A DNA stretch of 49,650 bases. Origin: Blastocladiella britannica (lineage: Eukaryota > Blastocladiomycota > Blastocladiomycetes > Blastocladiales > Blastocladiaceae). The position numbers and the translations under genes were made by a program. Positions within the stretch are counted from its first letter, which is position 1, and each line of letters starts with the position of its first letter. The DNA lies in contig MU624576.1 of NCBI GenBank assembly GCA_025349905.2, positions 1-49,650 on the forward strand, written 5' to 3'. Shown piece after piece: positions 4,004 through 9,062 of the stretch. The notes under the pieces are model-generated. The model did not search any database, was not told where the DNA came from, and saw only the letters and a program-made list of their open reading frames with translations.

Positions 4004-6601
4004 CGTCGTTCTCTCGCCCACATTTCCCGTCCAGCCCGATGTGGCAGTCGCGGAACTCGTGTTTGATTTGGTCATGCAGCTGACGTCCAGCTACATGCTC
4101 TTTCTCACGTACCGCGCGTTGACGCGGACCGATGACATCTTGTTCTTTGGGTCCATTTGCCTGAACCGGTTTGTGGCCGTGCTCGACACAATCATGCTCT
4201 TGGCGGTCGACAATGCGTCGTCATCGTTCCTGGTCCACTTTTCGTTTGTGCGATCGCTCGTACGGTACCTGGCATTGTGCATCGCTGTCGGCTACATGTC
4301 GCAGCGACGCGTGCTCCGCGCATCGCGACTTGTCCTCCGCACACACGAGGAGCTGCTCAGCTACTTTATTCTCGGCATTGCGATTCTCGCCGTCTTGATC
4401 GGCGGCGGCACCGTCGTGGCCTATTTCGTATCGAGCCTGATTGCCGTGAGCGCCAGCGACTCGCTCCTGGACGCACGCCCCAACGCATCGGCATCAGAGG
4501 TGCTGCGGGCCCAAACGCTTGCCGTATCGGACGTTCCACCCGAGATGTTTGAGGTCATGATGGCCGTCAATTTCCCAGTCATTCACGGCCTGCAGATCCT
4601 GATTGACGGGTTCTTTTACAGTACGTTTTTATTAATTTTGCTCATGTAGCGATCATTGCTCAAAATTAAAGCCAAAAAATAGCCGTGATTTCAGGCATGT
4701 GGGCAACCACCTTCATCAACGTGCGCAAGCTCACGGCACGCAACTGGGCCTTGATTTCGCTGCCGTACCTGGCCACACTTTTGCTGCACTTGCTCGTGAT
4801 GGTGCTCACCGCCATCTCGCGTGCCGGCTCGCCGATCGAATTCGTGGTGGAGCTGGGCCAGTTTGCGTTTGCCGTCGACTGGTACATTTTCATCAACAAG
4901 ACGGAACCGCTTTTGCGCGACGTGCAAGCGACTGAAGTCGACGTCTCAGTCATGTCGTCGCAGTCGGGTGGCTCGGGCGGCGGCAACCGCTCGCGCCAAG
5001 GCAGCCGCGCCCGGCCCGTCATTGTTACTAAGGGCCGCAATCCGCCAAAACGCGAGGTGATTTACCAGAAAAAGTCGCTCCCGCCAACGCCGCTGTCGCC
5101 CACGTCGCTCACGTCCGGAAACGGAATGCCGCTGTCGTCGGCGTCATCCGGTGGTGCCGCTGCCGCTGCGCGCGCAATGGCGGCTCACGAGGACATCTTG
5201 GGCACGGCCGTGCTGCCCACCACCATGATGCCCGCGTCGCAAATGATGGGCATGTCGCCGCCATCGCAGCCGCTCTCACCCGCCCTGTCGCAACCCGCTG
5301 GCGTCTACTTTGCGCGGCCGGCCACGCCCGGAACCACGCCCGGAACCACGCCACAGGGATTGTACGCGTCGCACAAGCACATGCTTGGTGCTGGTCTGTC
5401 CATCAGCCCCAACTCGGGCAAGTCGTTCATGACGGCGCATACGAGCAGCGGTGGTGGATCGCGCGGGTCGGCGTCCATGTCACGTCAGGGGACGGACAGC
5501 AGTACCCGTGGATCCATGGCACCTGAGGTGAGCGAGCAGTACGAGCTGTCCAACTACTACTCAATGGATAGAAAGGAACCGTCGCCGCCGCAACAACAAC
5601 AACAGCAGCAACCGCAAAAACAACAACACCAGAGGCAACTCTCGTCGTCGTCGTTTACCAAGCCAGCGACATCCCCACTACCGATCGCAGCCGGGTCCGA
5701 TCCCGCGTGGCGCTTCCTGTCGTCGCTGCAATCCTCGCAACAGCTGCTGGCGTCCGAGGACGACGCTGGCCAGTACCACGCTGGTCTTGCCCTCGGCGAC
5801 GATGGAGCGACCAGTGTGGCCGGCGTCTCGGGGTCGACGGTCATGGGACCACTTTCGCGCGAGAGCATGATGGGACGACGTTCCGTTCCCCTCGCCACTC
5901 CGGAACCAGCAGCAGTAGCAGCAGTAGCGACGGCGACCGCGGCGGTGCCGGCTGGGGCGGCGGTCCCACCCACGTACGATTCATTTGAGGTGGAGGAGTA
6001 CATTGAGCTCTCGGACACGGCCGGGTCGCGCGAGCGGCCGTCGCGGCGGTCCACGTCCGACTTCACCGTGCACGCGTACTCGACTATGCCCGCCACCGTC
6101 AGCACCGTCTCGAGCCCTCCGCTTCCTCGCGATGCGGCGGCCGCAGCCGCGGACGTGCTGCTCCGTGCCTCGGGCACTCAGCCCTTGTCGCCCCAACGCC
6201 AGGCCTACGTCCAACTGCAGCAGCAACAGCACCAGCAACCAGCGGCCCTGTTCCCTCTCCCACAGCAATTGCCCGCGCCACCTGAGTACCAGGCAGCCGA
6301 GGACCGCTGGCGTCGTGCGCGCGCTGAGTGGGAGGCCAATACCGCTGCTGGCGACGCAGCCGAATCTGGGCAGCTGGCGCGGCCGCCGCACACGATGGCT
6401 CTGGGCCGGGCCGCCGCCGAGGGAGACACGGTGTTGGTCCTGGACGACGGAGATGTACCCTTGCGGTCGCCGTCGGGAGTACCGCTGGCTCCGTTCGAGG
6501 TGGCCGAGGAGCGCTGGCGCCGCGAGCGCGCCGAGTGGGACCGGAAGCAGCTCGAGGCCGTCCGCGCCGAGGCCCAAAACGCACGCCGGGGCATCCCGTG
6601 A
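4004..6601 (+). CDS. multi-pass (about seven-helix) membrane protein with long low-complexity cytosolic tail
   Basis: Not assigned to a family. The 5' end is uncertain: the reading frame is open from 4004 after a TAG acceptor, but the first in-frame ATG is 4074. One intron fits well, 4621-4694 (GTACGT...TCAG), joining GFFY to SMWATTFINV. The first ~270 residues hold about seven hydrophobic segments, for example LVMQLTSSYMLFLTYRAL, YFILGIAILAVLIGGG and LISLPYLATLLLHLLVMVL. The remaining ~550 residues are Ser/Pro/Gln/Ala-rich with Q-runs near 5590-5640 and 6220-6240. Two near-copies of an AExRWRRxRAEW motif occur in the tail, at about 6297-6330 and 6504-6540; the second is near the C-terminus. 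The layout resembles a receptor with a signalling tail, but I see no diagnostic GPCR motif. Product is about 817 aa from ATG 4074. Confidence 0.7.
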
Positions 6602-7079
6602 TTCTTTTTTTTTTTCCTATACCATCCCCAATACACACGGCTGGGGAGAGTCGGAATAAAATCCGGCGGAGAACAGTCAAAAAGCTTCAGGATGAACAGG
6701 GCAAGAAACTATCCGCAGGAAACTGGAACATCACCCAGAATCCGCCAAACTTTTTCCTTTGGATTGTTGCCTGGTCAAAGCCGTTGCCGCTCCTGGATTC
6801 CCTTGGATTTTTTCTTCATTTTCCTCAGGAATCGGACTTGATCACCTTTTCCAGTGGACTTGCAACGCTTTTCCAACGGAATTTGGCTCCAAAATCCAGC
6901 CGAATCTGAATCCAATTTCCAAAATCACCACTTACATATATATACTTTTCTTTTAACAAATACTCGGTCTCGATCATATCCAAAACCCGCTCGAACTTGA
7001 TTGCACACAAAAGAAACCTATACAAAAGAAATAAAAGAAATAAACATGTTGGCCATATGCTCGTTCGCAAGATAGTACT
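6602..7079. other. AT-rich spacer upstream of the Fanzor-like gene, with an imperfect inverted repeat
   Basis: About 480 bp, markedly more AT-rich than the neighbouring genes. It contains GGAATTTGG (6878-6886) facing CCAATTTCC (6912-6920), with the internal arms TTGGCT/AGCC-GAA, so a hairpin of about 43 nt is possible. I searched it by eye for the missing N-terminal half of the Fanzor protein and found no GC-rich coding stretch. It probably holds the 3' UTR of the upstream membrane-protein gene and possibly the left end of the Fanzor element, but I recognise no terminal inverted repeat or target-site duplication. Confidence 0.45.
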
Positions 7080-8453
7080 TTGAATTGGGGTGAGTGTGAT
7101 TTCATAACCCAGACAAAATTTGACCATGGCACCGACGAGGAGCGCATGGCGGCGATTGCGGAGCGCGTGTTCGGGTATGTTTATTCCTCTATTCTATTTT
7201 GTTTTGTGCATTTTTTCCTGACGCCCCCTTCCCAATCCGGCCACAGCTTCAGGAAGCTGATCGGGTCGGATCCGGGTGCGACCAAGGCGCAGTCGCTGGT
7301 GATCGTGGAGACCGACGGCACGTCGAGGGATCGCGCGCTCTCGCGGAAGGAGTACAGCCACGGGTGCGGCAACAACATCGCGAACGCCAAGCGCAAGGCG
7401 TTGGAGGCCAGGTCGCCCGAGATCAAGGCCATCAACGCCCGCATGCCGTCGCTTCAGGTCCCGACGATGGCGGCGATCGTCGACCTGTTCAAGTACCGGT
7501 GGGGCCACGCCATGGCTCTGCGCAACTTCTACCACGCTCCCATCCAAGCGCGCATCAAGCATCGGAACGAAGTGCAGCGGAAGCAATTCCAGGAGAAGTT
7601 TGTGCGGAGCCTTGCGCCCGAGTGCCAGACGCCATGCGAGCGGGTCGGCGTGATCGTGGTGACGGGCGACTCGGGTCGGTTCGCGTCGCTTCGCGGTTTT
7701 GCGCCGGCAGCGGTGGGCTGGTTCGAGCCCACGTGCCTCCGCCGCGGGTACACGGTCGTCCGGATGGACGAGTACCGGACATCCAAGCTCTGTTGTGGGT
7801 GTCACAACATCCTGGAGACCGTGCCCGGGAGCCCGTGGGGGACGCGTGCATGCTCCACGTGCCGTTACATTGTCGATCGTGACGCGAACGCAGCTCGCAA
7901 CATGGTCGCCTTGTTCCTGCACATGGAGCTGCACGGTGGTGCGCGACCAGCCCGATTCGCGCGCGACCAGAAGCCGCCCGCCGCGCGTCCTCGCCTCGAC
8001 AAGTGGCGCGCCATCAAGAGGCCCCGCATCGAGTGGAGCACCTTGGTGGGGTGCCCCAAGACCCACTCGCGCCCCGCCCTCAAGAAGGCGCTCCGCTCGC
8101 AGCGGAAGGAGCTCGCCCTGGCCAAGGAGATTCCTGGTGCGGCCACCGCCGTCGAGAGGGCCGCTGCCGTCGAGAAGGCCGCCGCCATCAAGAAGGTGAT
8201 CAAGGGCCCTCTCGACGCGCTCAACGTGTTCAGGGACCACCACCGCAAGCAGTGGGCGGCCCTGGTCGATGAGTGCGAGGAGGGCGAGCGGCCGCTCAAT
8301 GTTCGCAGGCACGAGACCGAGGCGGACATGGAGGGGTGTCGCCGAGGCCTCTGCACCAGTGACGGCAGTGGTGGGGGTATAGCTTTTTCTTTTTTCTTCC
8401 ACCCCAAACCCCCTTCTACCTTCCAACTGGGCTTATACCCCACCCTCTCTTGA
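7080..8453 (+). CDS. Fanzor1-like (TnpB-related) RNA-guided DNA endonuclease, N-terminally short
   Basis: Eukaryotic relative of TnpB/Cas12. RuvC-I is LIGSDPGATKAQ (Asp codon 7269-7271), followed by LSRKEYSHGCG, a signature I associate with Fanzor1. RuvC-II region: VIVVTGDSGRF. Then MDEYRTSKLCCGCH (Glu codon 7770-7772), a zinc ribbon with CxxC pairs near 7793-7801 and 7850-7862, and RuvC-III VDRDANAARNM (Asp codon 7881-7883). An intron at 7175-7246 (GTATGT...ACAG, 72 nt) joins ERVFG to FRKLIGSDPG. The frame is open upstream to 7080 but the first in-frame ATG is 7146, giving about 411 aa. Known Fanzor1 proteins carry a long WED/REC region before RuvC; here only about 15-40 residues precede it, so this copy looks 5'-truncated or has unseen exons. 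After RuvC-III comes a ~150-residue basic, Ala-rich extension not expected for the family. Codon use matches the host, so it is not a very recent arrival. Confidence 0.85.
   Translation: MNWGECDFITQTKFDHGTDEERMAAIAERVFGYVYSSILFCFVHFFLTPPSQSGHSFRKLIGSDPGATKAQSLVIVETDGTSRDRALSRKEYSHGCGNNIANAKRKALEARSPEIKAINARMPSLQVPTMAAIVDLFKYRWGHAMALRNFYHAPIQARIKHRNEVQRKQFQEKFVRSLAPECQTPCERVGVIVVTGDSGRFASLRGFAPAAVGWFEPTCLRRGYTVVRMDEYRTSKLCCGCHNILETVPGSPWGTRACSTCRYIVDRDANAARNMVALFLHMELHGGARPARFARDQKPPAARPRLDKWRAIKRPRIEWSTLVGCPKTHSRPALKKALRSQRKELALAKEIPGAATAVERAAAVEKAAAIKKVIKGPLDALNVFRDHHRKQWAALVDECEEGERPLNVRRHETEADMEGCRRGLCTSDGSGGGIAFSFFFHPKPPSTFQLGLYPTLS
8370..8444 (+). repeat. inverted repeat / hairpin at the 3' end of the Fanzor-like gene
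   Basis: GGTGGGGGTATAGC (8370-8383) faces GCTTATACCCCACC (8431-8444). The arms pair over 13 base pairs with one bulge on each side, around a pyrimidine-rich loop of 47 nt. The structure spans the last codons and stop of the Fanzor reading frame. In described Fanzor and TnpB loci the guide RNA scaffold overlaps the 3' end of the nuclease gene, so this is a candidate part of such an RNA. That role is inferred, not shown. Confidence 0.5.
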
Positions 8454-9062
8454 TTCGCCTTTCCTTTTGGCAAACCTGTACAGCAGTAGTACAGGATCGA
8501 GATCACGTTGTTTCAGCTCTTCCCATTTCCTTGGATTTCCGGATTGGTTGTGACAGGCGTGCAATACACTAGACTGCTTTTTTTTTTTGCGGCGTTTGTA
8601 TGCACAACCTTCCCCTTTGGGAAAGCGCCGCGTCCTCAAGCAACGACAATTTGTTAATCATGCCAGTCCCTTGAATTATTCTCCTTAGCTGGCTGGTTCA
8701 TTCTATTATATTCGCGAGTAATAATCACTTTTTTACTTTTGACTTGCACTCGTTGTGCATTTGCGAAAGCGCCGTCACCACCAACGAATCCAATTGTCAA
8801 ATTCGAAGCGATCGCCGCTCTATTTCTTTACGACTTCGAAAGACACCAAAGATAGCACTGCTTGCTGCCTTGCGGAATGGTCCGTATGCCCGTTTTCAAT
8901 TTTCTTTTTACAGTGTGCGCTGCCGCCTGCGCGCGTCTCCAAACTCTCGAAGCGCAACTCTTAAAAAAATAATGGTGGAGAAAAGTCGAGTGTGCGCTCT
9001 CGAATCGACCCGTGCACGCGATCCGTGTAATGCAACAGAGCAAAGTGAAATTTACTCACAAA
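8454..9062. other. spacer between Fanzor-like gene and kinase: candidate structured guide-RNA region
   Basis: About 600 bp without a protein gene. It holds an exact 7-bp hairpin (8475-8495: CCTGTAC, 7-nt loop, GTACAGG), a 40-bp sequence repeated at 45354-45393 (8522-8561), a T-run (about 8578-8588), and a compound hairpin at 8589-8631. In the last, GCGGCG (8589-8594) pairs with CGCCGC (8626-8631) and encloses TTCCC-CTTT-GGGAA (8610-8623). The rest, 8640-9062, is AT-rich and presumably the kinase promoter and 5' UTR. The run of hairpins next to a Fanzor gene fits a guide-RNA scaffold and element end, but no transcript evidence is available. Confidence 0.5.
8522..8561 (+). repeat. 40-bp dispersed repeat, copy 1
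   Basis: This 40-bp stretch (starting CCCATTTCC and ending ACAGGCGTG) is identical, base for base, to the reverse complement of 45354-45393. Similarity stops abruptly on both sides. It lies 68 bp after the stop codon of the Fanzor-like gene, between two hairpins. It is most likely part of a mobile-element end or scaffold; a shared regulatory element is the alternative. Confidence 0.85.

Follow-up and report, generated by a model that had tools for sequence, protein, structure and literature searches.

A Fanzor1-type gene most likely gutted by internal deletion within a transposon copy of Blastocladiella britannica

The window analyzed here is the whole of one contig (C37, 49,650 bases) of Blastocladiella britannica, a member of the zoosporic phylum Blastocladiomycota. 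A stop-to-stop frame in the open reading frame list spans positions 7044 to 8453 (469 aa), and the motifs SDPG (7266), GDSGRF (7665), DEYRTSK (7767), CCGC (7791), CSTC (7851) and DRDANAARN (7875) start within it. An intron-like stretch of 72 nt (7175-7246, GTATGT...CACAG) lies ahead of these motifs, and splicing it out joins AERVFG to FRKLIGSDPG in frame. The surviving coding block (7239-8340, on the plus strand like the other features of the element given below unless stated) is delimited by Pfam, a family profile and the motifs. It encodes 367 aa comprising a RuvC domain, a TNB zinc ribbon and part of a C-terminal tail. The RuvC triad can be compared by motif with that of SpuFz1 (D383, E541 and D606; PMC11423790). 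The RuvC-I aspartate of SDPG (7269-7271) compares with D383, the RuvC-II glutamate of DEYRTSK (7770-7772), six residues ahead of the first CxxC, with E541, and the RuvC-III motif DRDANAARN (7875-7901) with D606. The zinc ribbon CCGC...CSTC (7791-7862; PF07282 and motif) is placed between RuvC-II and RuvC-III, as expected of a Fanzor1 nuclease. In the window copy, DPG accompanies the triad and the rearranged glutamate stands six residues ahead of the first CxxC, the arrangement by which PMC10711439 recognizes a Fanzor1 triad.

PF07282 (Cas12f1-like TNB) is the sole Pfam family above cut-off, and its score (39.3 bits against a curated cut-off of 26.3) places the match far beyond chance. When the single window sequence was searched against solved structures, the TnpB-like protein L79 led (E 0.0047), other TnpB/Cas12 relatives were weak, and SpuFz1 was absent from the matches. 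A family profile built from nine B. britannica pieces (A1) ranked SpuFz1 (8gkh) at the top, with E 1.8e-4 over 138 positions of RuvC; L79 followed with E 4.7e-4 over 56 positions, which cover the zinc ribbon only. The locus most likely encodes the nuclease half of a Fanzor protein of the Fanzor1 type, the choice of Fanzor1 over Fanzor2 being that of one profile ranking. The preliminary description had proposed a Fanzor1-like relative, short at the N-terminus, in a probable zoosporic fungus. The host agrees with that guess, every motif named is present where it was placed, and the frame does run on once the 72 nt are removed. The Pfam match and the profile ranking support the kinship itself.

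The shortness of the N-terminus also holds. The sole in-frame ATG ahead of RuvC-I is at 7146, and once the frame is spliced it leaves 17 residues before the RuvC-I aspartate. Another ATG (7126-7128) has a strong context, and it is out of frame with RuvC. The WED and REC region that should precede RuvC-I is missing from the window copy. A structure prediction for the window protein (alignment A4, 6 sequences) gave a mean pLDDT of 44.6 and a pTM of 0.24 and was not used. An antisense frame of 412 aa (7194-8432, minus strand), without a Pfam match, lies over the RuvC block and is most likely a by-product of GC-rich codons. A scan of the window against Rfam gave nothing at gathering scores.

The coding block lies within a mobile element copy of 1,925 bp (6637-8561), at whose limits the homology to other copies ends. 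It is flanked by two copies of CAATACAC (6629-6636 and 8562-8569), a probable target-site duplication recognized from the sequence and a comparison of flanks. The element begins with (C)ACGGCTGGGGAGAG, its left boundary being ambiguous by one base, and finishes with GACAGGCGTG; a short imperfect inverted repeat is formed by CACGGCTG and CACGCCTG. Homology to the sibling copies stops sharply at about 6636 and 8561. The left block (6637-7125) is taken as non-coding, and copy alignments show part or all of it to be common to gene-bearing and short gene-less copies. The family is numerous. Searched against the assembly, the 373-aa protein matched 53 stretches, which group into 29 loci, the window included, each with at least one match at E <= 1e-7. 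A genome DNA search with window 6600-9060 gave at least 73 matches in the best 40 of 140 candidates. The short gene-less copies have about 250 bp from the left side and 163 bp from the right side of the element, and no gene separates the two. Eight such copies were aligned, among them L057, which is without a left end.

Flanks were compared for the 10 copies with both ends located; C278 was left out, its left "end" being a false match. The longest words common to both flanks were 8, 7, 4, 6, 5, 2, 8, 3, 4 and 2 bp. Four copies thus share words of 8, 8, 7 and 6 bp, and the other six, which share 2-5 bp, have no convincing flanking duplication. Among the 90 non-cognate flank pairs, none shared 8 bp, one shared at least 7 and four shared at least 6. 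In L056 and L060 the shared word sits 2 and 5 bases off the right end. The window locus is a transposon insertion with a probable target-site duplication. The element contains seven further open frames of 122-412 aa; none matched a Pfam family above cut-off, so that no transposase was recognized among them.

Comparison with the siblings indicates how the window copy came to lack its N-terminal region. The remnant of exon 1, GTDEERMAAIAERVFG (7128-7174), in which the only in-frame ATG is that at 7146, has the counterpart GETDEARMTAIALRVYEY in C264, a copy of another subfamily. The first 51 nt of the intron-like stretch (7175-7225) can be aligned throughout, with gaps, with C264 intron 1; in C32, the corresponding place matches 19 nt of them. 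None of 300 simple shuffles reached either score; the alignment to the C21 intron is weaker (9/300). Downstream of intron 1, C264 and C32 run into exon sequence that is missing from the window. The window intron stops just past a branch-point-like CTGAC, and the RuvC block is joined 12 nt further. The candidate acceptor, CCACAG, is former coding sequence within the RuvC block and appears fortuitous. By these alignments, the "intron" is the first 51 nt of the family intron 1, fused to the RuvC block by deletion of the intervening exons.

Other deletions accompany this one. C215 and C112 open at the counterpart of the out-of-frame ATG at 7126, read MATTPYLK...GTDEERMAAIAERAFG, and keep about 100-120 bp of exon 1 that are deleted after this ATG in the window. 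Between exon 1 and RuvC-I they have about 210-235 bp, and the window has 60 unrelated bases. C3- lacks the exon 1 part and keeps the part from exon 1 to RuvC-I. The middle exons are also absent from C215, C112, C3- and C256, in which GTACAG at the end of exon 1 is followed directly by the linker. Intron 1 survives as about 51 nt in the window and as 3 nt in C215 and its like. The window copy thus cannot have inherited their loss of the middle exons, which were therefore lost at least twice. Toward the 3' side (8341-8400), other copies have extra sequence: 111-180 bp at 8341 in C104, C341, C278 and C112, and 186 bp more at 8400 in C278. The gap at 8341 is read, from the copy alignments, as a probable deletion of the end of the C-terminal tail in the window; the 186 bp reflect either a deletion in the window or an insertion in C278. 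A domain beginning GACRSV, located upstream in C461 and kept in C21, C104 and C341, is absent from the window copy.

Sequence belonging between exon 1 and RuvC-I is carried by relics in C264, C32, C278 and C366. C264 has an exon 1 ending in GETDEARMTAIALRVYEY, an intron, an exon reading MFAGWYAGG...VDMYKIM, a second intron and a stretch ending in GPTFRGVLSTDGTKCCLLMDV; the genome search with the window protein gave no RuvC match on its contig. In C32, what survives is the end of intron 1 and the beginning of a second exon of the C264 type. C278 has about 60 residues before the linker, ending in HFDKKGNPTSFVGREFGGHIYSDGTTCRLKMVNKA, and C366 has a version of the third stretch of C264, in another frame, ahead of RuvC. 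The missing exons most likely encoded the REC and WED parts, as judged from their position ahead of RuvC-I and from a TDG-like motif, a typical feature. Some siblings are damaged in the nuclease domain too: the counterpart of 7674-8182 is gone from C112 and that of 7511-7906 from C3-, which breaks RuvC in both, and C215 has an assembly gap in RuvC.

Several further members of the family were observed. C104 (L064, 1498-2754) and C341 (L065) are 94% identical and are a mirror image of the window copy: the N-terminal domain and C-terminal tail are kept and RuvC is cut out. Between these two, dN/dS is 0.54, and a stop in C341 is a Trp in C104. At least two further Fanzor subfamilies of varying completeness are present, one with C2, C461, C64, C161, C420 and C264 and the other with C3+, C499, C1, C81 and C353; C420 resembles a gene-less copy related to C64. 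Apparent Fanzor fusions in C173 (L066) and C256 (L067) were rejected because their frames of more than 1,000 aa run through N.

Four relic queries were searched against the whole assembly (E <= 0.1, best candidates). The first matched C104, C341, C2, C21 and C461, the second C278, C32 and C264, the third C264, C32 and C1, and the fourth C264, C65 and C278; C37 was not among the matches of any of them. No intact Fanzor gene was found in the assembly with the window protein and these four queries. Contig ends truncate ten copies (C348, C427, C498, C461, C341 and C21 at the end; C353, C161, C99 and C2 at the start), and for this reason an intact gene may be missing from the assembly. When relatives of full length were sought among known proteins, B. 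britannica proteins were returned, plus three distant ones whose source is jgi or ena. An N-terminal relic gave nothing at E <= 1 among 100 candidates of the protein database, and N-terminal relics gave chance-level matches only against solved structures and Pfam. One of the proteins, P0007 (jgi source, 392 aa), is distant and Fanzor-like, with PF07282 and about 140 residues before DPG; as its contig is 1,511 bases long, the protein may be incomplete. Pairwise, a relic and P0007 share a single 11-residue match (E 1.6).

Constraint on the family and constraint on the window copy are different matters. Against the divergent copies, dN/dS of the window is 0.38 (C3+), 0.36 (C499), 0.32 (C1), 0.33 (C81), 0.38 (C2), 0.59 (C366), 0.42 (C461) and 0.38 (C64), from gapped nucleotide alignments with stop-containing codons dropped. 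Values of 0.32-0.42 in seven of the eight, C366 being the exception, are a sign of past constraint on the family. Against 13 close pieces the range is 0.20-1.2, the lowest values coming from short pieces (second piece of C112, 0.20; C348, 0.21; C498, 0.26) and the rest lying at 0.35-1.2. Of the 14 scorable changes found in the window copy alone, 5 are synonymous and 9 nonsynonymous (codon positions 5, 6 and 3; synonymous sites 24%); some fall at sites for which just two other copies are available. They look neutral and match drift, small numbers leaving room for weak selection, and the purifying selection of a domesticated gene was not seen in them. The comparison with relatives suggested in the preliminary description gives a sign of past family constraint and no such sign in the changes private to the window copy. 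The same description had noted that the frame stayed open with host-like codon use. The frame is indeed open, which is no evidence either way because 3.3% of single changes in the stretch create a stop and, after 14 changes, a neutral copy would still be open with a probability of 0.63; the 412-aa antisense frame is open as well. Codon use is not especially host-like, as third-position GC is 0.875, against 0.757 and 0.672 in stretches of two neighboring open frames.

The best conserved part of the compared copies is the right-end block (8399-8561), whose 11 full-length matches have 89-97% identity to the window. For left blocks this identity is 76-93%, across 118-292 aligned positions. In 36 pairs among the 9 copies having both blocks, the 163-bp right block is closer than a 136-bp left piece in 35 (mean 95% against 89%). 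A terminal hairpin (CACGUUGUU...GACAGGCGUG, 8504-8561) closes on the last base of the element and, from its fold and by analogy with the system described in PMC10432273, is a candidate for the end of a guide-RNA scaffold. The last 59 bp are nearly invariant in 14 copies, and their fold has a modest z-score of -2.1, with 7 of 200 shuffles folding as well. Across these 14 copies, 262 cells are paired and 4 unpaired (gaps included), with 2 one-sided changes and no two-sided ones, the hairpin being too conserved for covariation. The count leaves out C215, C112 and C104 (right ends without the cutting motif), the divergent copies and C3-; the right ends of C215 and of the divergent C3+, C499, C1 and C81 fold otherwise. 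A second small hairpin, CCUGUACAGCAGUAGUACAGG, lies at 8475-8495, about 65 bp before the right end, and is kept in seven of the eight short copies.

The locus very probably holds the insertion of a non-autonomous transposon copy, derived from a Fanzor1-bearing DNA element, whose gene was gutted by internal deletions and which is an inactive relic. This reading draws on direct observations: the anatomy of the sequence, the duplicated flank, the siblings and what the window copy has lost relative to them, and the lack of a relic-exon match on C37. The copy has ends and sequence in common with fuller copies of the same genome, and deletions relative to them. The ancestral element would have carried a Fanzor1-type gene with exons ahead of RuvC-I. 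The main deletion would have begun within intron 1, ended where the RuvC block starts and taken out the intervening exons; smaller ones would account for the 100-120 bp missing from exon 1 and for the lost end of the C-terminal tail. These would have left a RuvC core, its triad residues in place, and the zinc ribbon. Movement of the copy presumably depended on a transposase from another source. Since the guide- and target-binding lobe is gone and the start codon is not well placed, the copy would most likely fail to yield a functional RNA-guided nuclease. Because of the missing WED and REC, it is not filed as a Fanzor nuclease, though it descends from one.

Among the three options that the preliminary description had left side by side, the truncated copy is the one favored by the retained exons of the siblings and the junction in intron 1. 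The intact triad and zinc ribbon and the open frame speak against a relic, as a long-dead copy need not have them, and they are also the points in favor of the fungus keeping the short protein as a small nuclease of its own. Such a host-retained RuvC module is highly improbable, however. The copy is still bounded by the transposon ends and by CAATACAC, it has many siblings and no good start codon, its private changes look neutral and without constraint, and its open frame is expected by chance with the probability given above. C215, C112, C3- and C256 also lack the middle exons, as deletion derivatives would. That REC and WED are encoded further upstream and spliced in is scarcely credible: upstream exons and introns do exist in other copies of the family, but the relic searches (E <= 0.1, best candidates), with their matches in ten other contigs, never reached C37. 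Moreover, about 490 bp separate the left end of the element from exon 1, and some 35 bp ahead of that end a 643-aa open frame terminates. The assembly does hold reciprocal halves, namely RuvC without N-terminal exons (the window, and C215 with its gap in RuvC) and N-terminal parts without RuvC (C104, C341 and C264). C112 and C3-, with RuvC broken, do not count among the RuvC halves. There is the slimmest of chances that these halves are both expressed and, with the right-end RNAs of the many gutted copies, cooperate or compete in a Fanzor system that is split or limits itself. Three other candidates were rejected. An assembly chimera is opposed by the flanking duplication and the sibling copies. 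A viral origin found no relative in a scan of viral contigs with a single protein, a weak test that reaches close relatives only. Nuclease-dead TnpB-like repressors exist, and here the triad residues are in place.

A further proposal is compatible with a relic. The right end of the gutted copy might be transcribed into a guide RNA for an intact Fanzor made elsewhere, a role that is possible though on balance doubtful. The greater likeness of right than of left blocks, the almost unchanged last 59 bp and a hairpin ending on the last base of the element are consistent with it. It also has a parallel in S. punctatus, where, according to PMC10432273, the right ends of ghost Spu-1 elements resemble the wRNA region of Fanzor loci, at which wRNA has been shown. 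Against it stand the modest z-score, the hairpin's want of two-sided changes, the failure of the searches to show an intact Fanzor gene, and the right ends that fold otherwise (C215, C3+, C499, C1 and C81) or are without the motif (C112 and C104). Conservation of the right end could instead serve the need of a transposase.

The relic reading explains an apparently minimal, RuvC-only Fanzor: its missing domains would have been lost by deletion within a transposon copy. Blastocladiella thereby joins the fungi in which Fanzor1-type elements occur together with gene-less siblings, and its many near-invariant right ends offer a second zoosporic lineage in which the supply of guide RNA by gutted copies can be tested. 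A literature search found no paper joining Fanzor with Blastocladiomycota or Blastocladiella. Allomyces macrogynus belongs to the same fungal phylum as Blastocladiella. Three Fanzor1 families are listed for it in PMC3627910 (Table 1). Protein searches gave no Allomyces-named match at E <= 1e-3, and none at E <= 1 among the best 7995 candidates; the Allomyces families are either far apart from the window family or were missed.

SpuFz1 of Spizellomyces punctatus (8gkh) has the triad order D...E...D and the TNB zinc ribbon of the window copy. It has 382 residues before the RuvC-I aspartate, including WED and REC, in contrast to about 17 in the window. The D-E spacing is 167 in the window and 158 in SpuFz1, and the E-D spacing is 35 or 37 (the two aspartates of DRD) in the window and 65 in SpuFz1. 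Partial, truncated and ghost Fanzor copies are already known (PMC3627910 and PMC10432273). The Chlamydomonas Fanzor1 elements CRe-1 to CRe-3, like the window's, show frequent truncation and internal deletion with intact 3' ends. They are treated as Helitrons in PMC3627910, whereas the seven other frames of the window element show no transposase by Pfam. Parallels also come from PMC10432273. The SpuFz1 element, like the window's, is about 2 kb, with the gene between two ends; its inverted repeats are 30 nt, against about 8 imperfect nt here. In S. punctatus, Fanzor genes, full in 19 cases and otherwise partial, occupy 42 loci, beside 134 ghost loci (PMC10432273), whereas no full-length gene was seen in searches of the B. 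britannica assembly. The wRNA of S. punctatus comes from the right end of Fanzor loci, where this RNA has been shown (PMC10432273); the right end in B. britannica is a candidate for the same role. Right-end RNAs of S. punctatus extend 14-15 nt into the flanking DNA. Ghost Spu-1 elements have both ends, no gene and a length of around 550 nt, and the short copies of B. britannica are about 400-550 bp. In both fungi, partial gene copies occur alongside short gene-less ones (PMC10432273 for S. punctatus).
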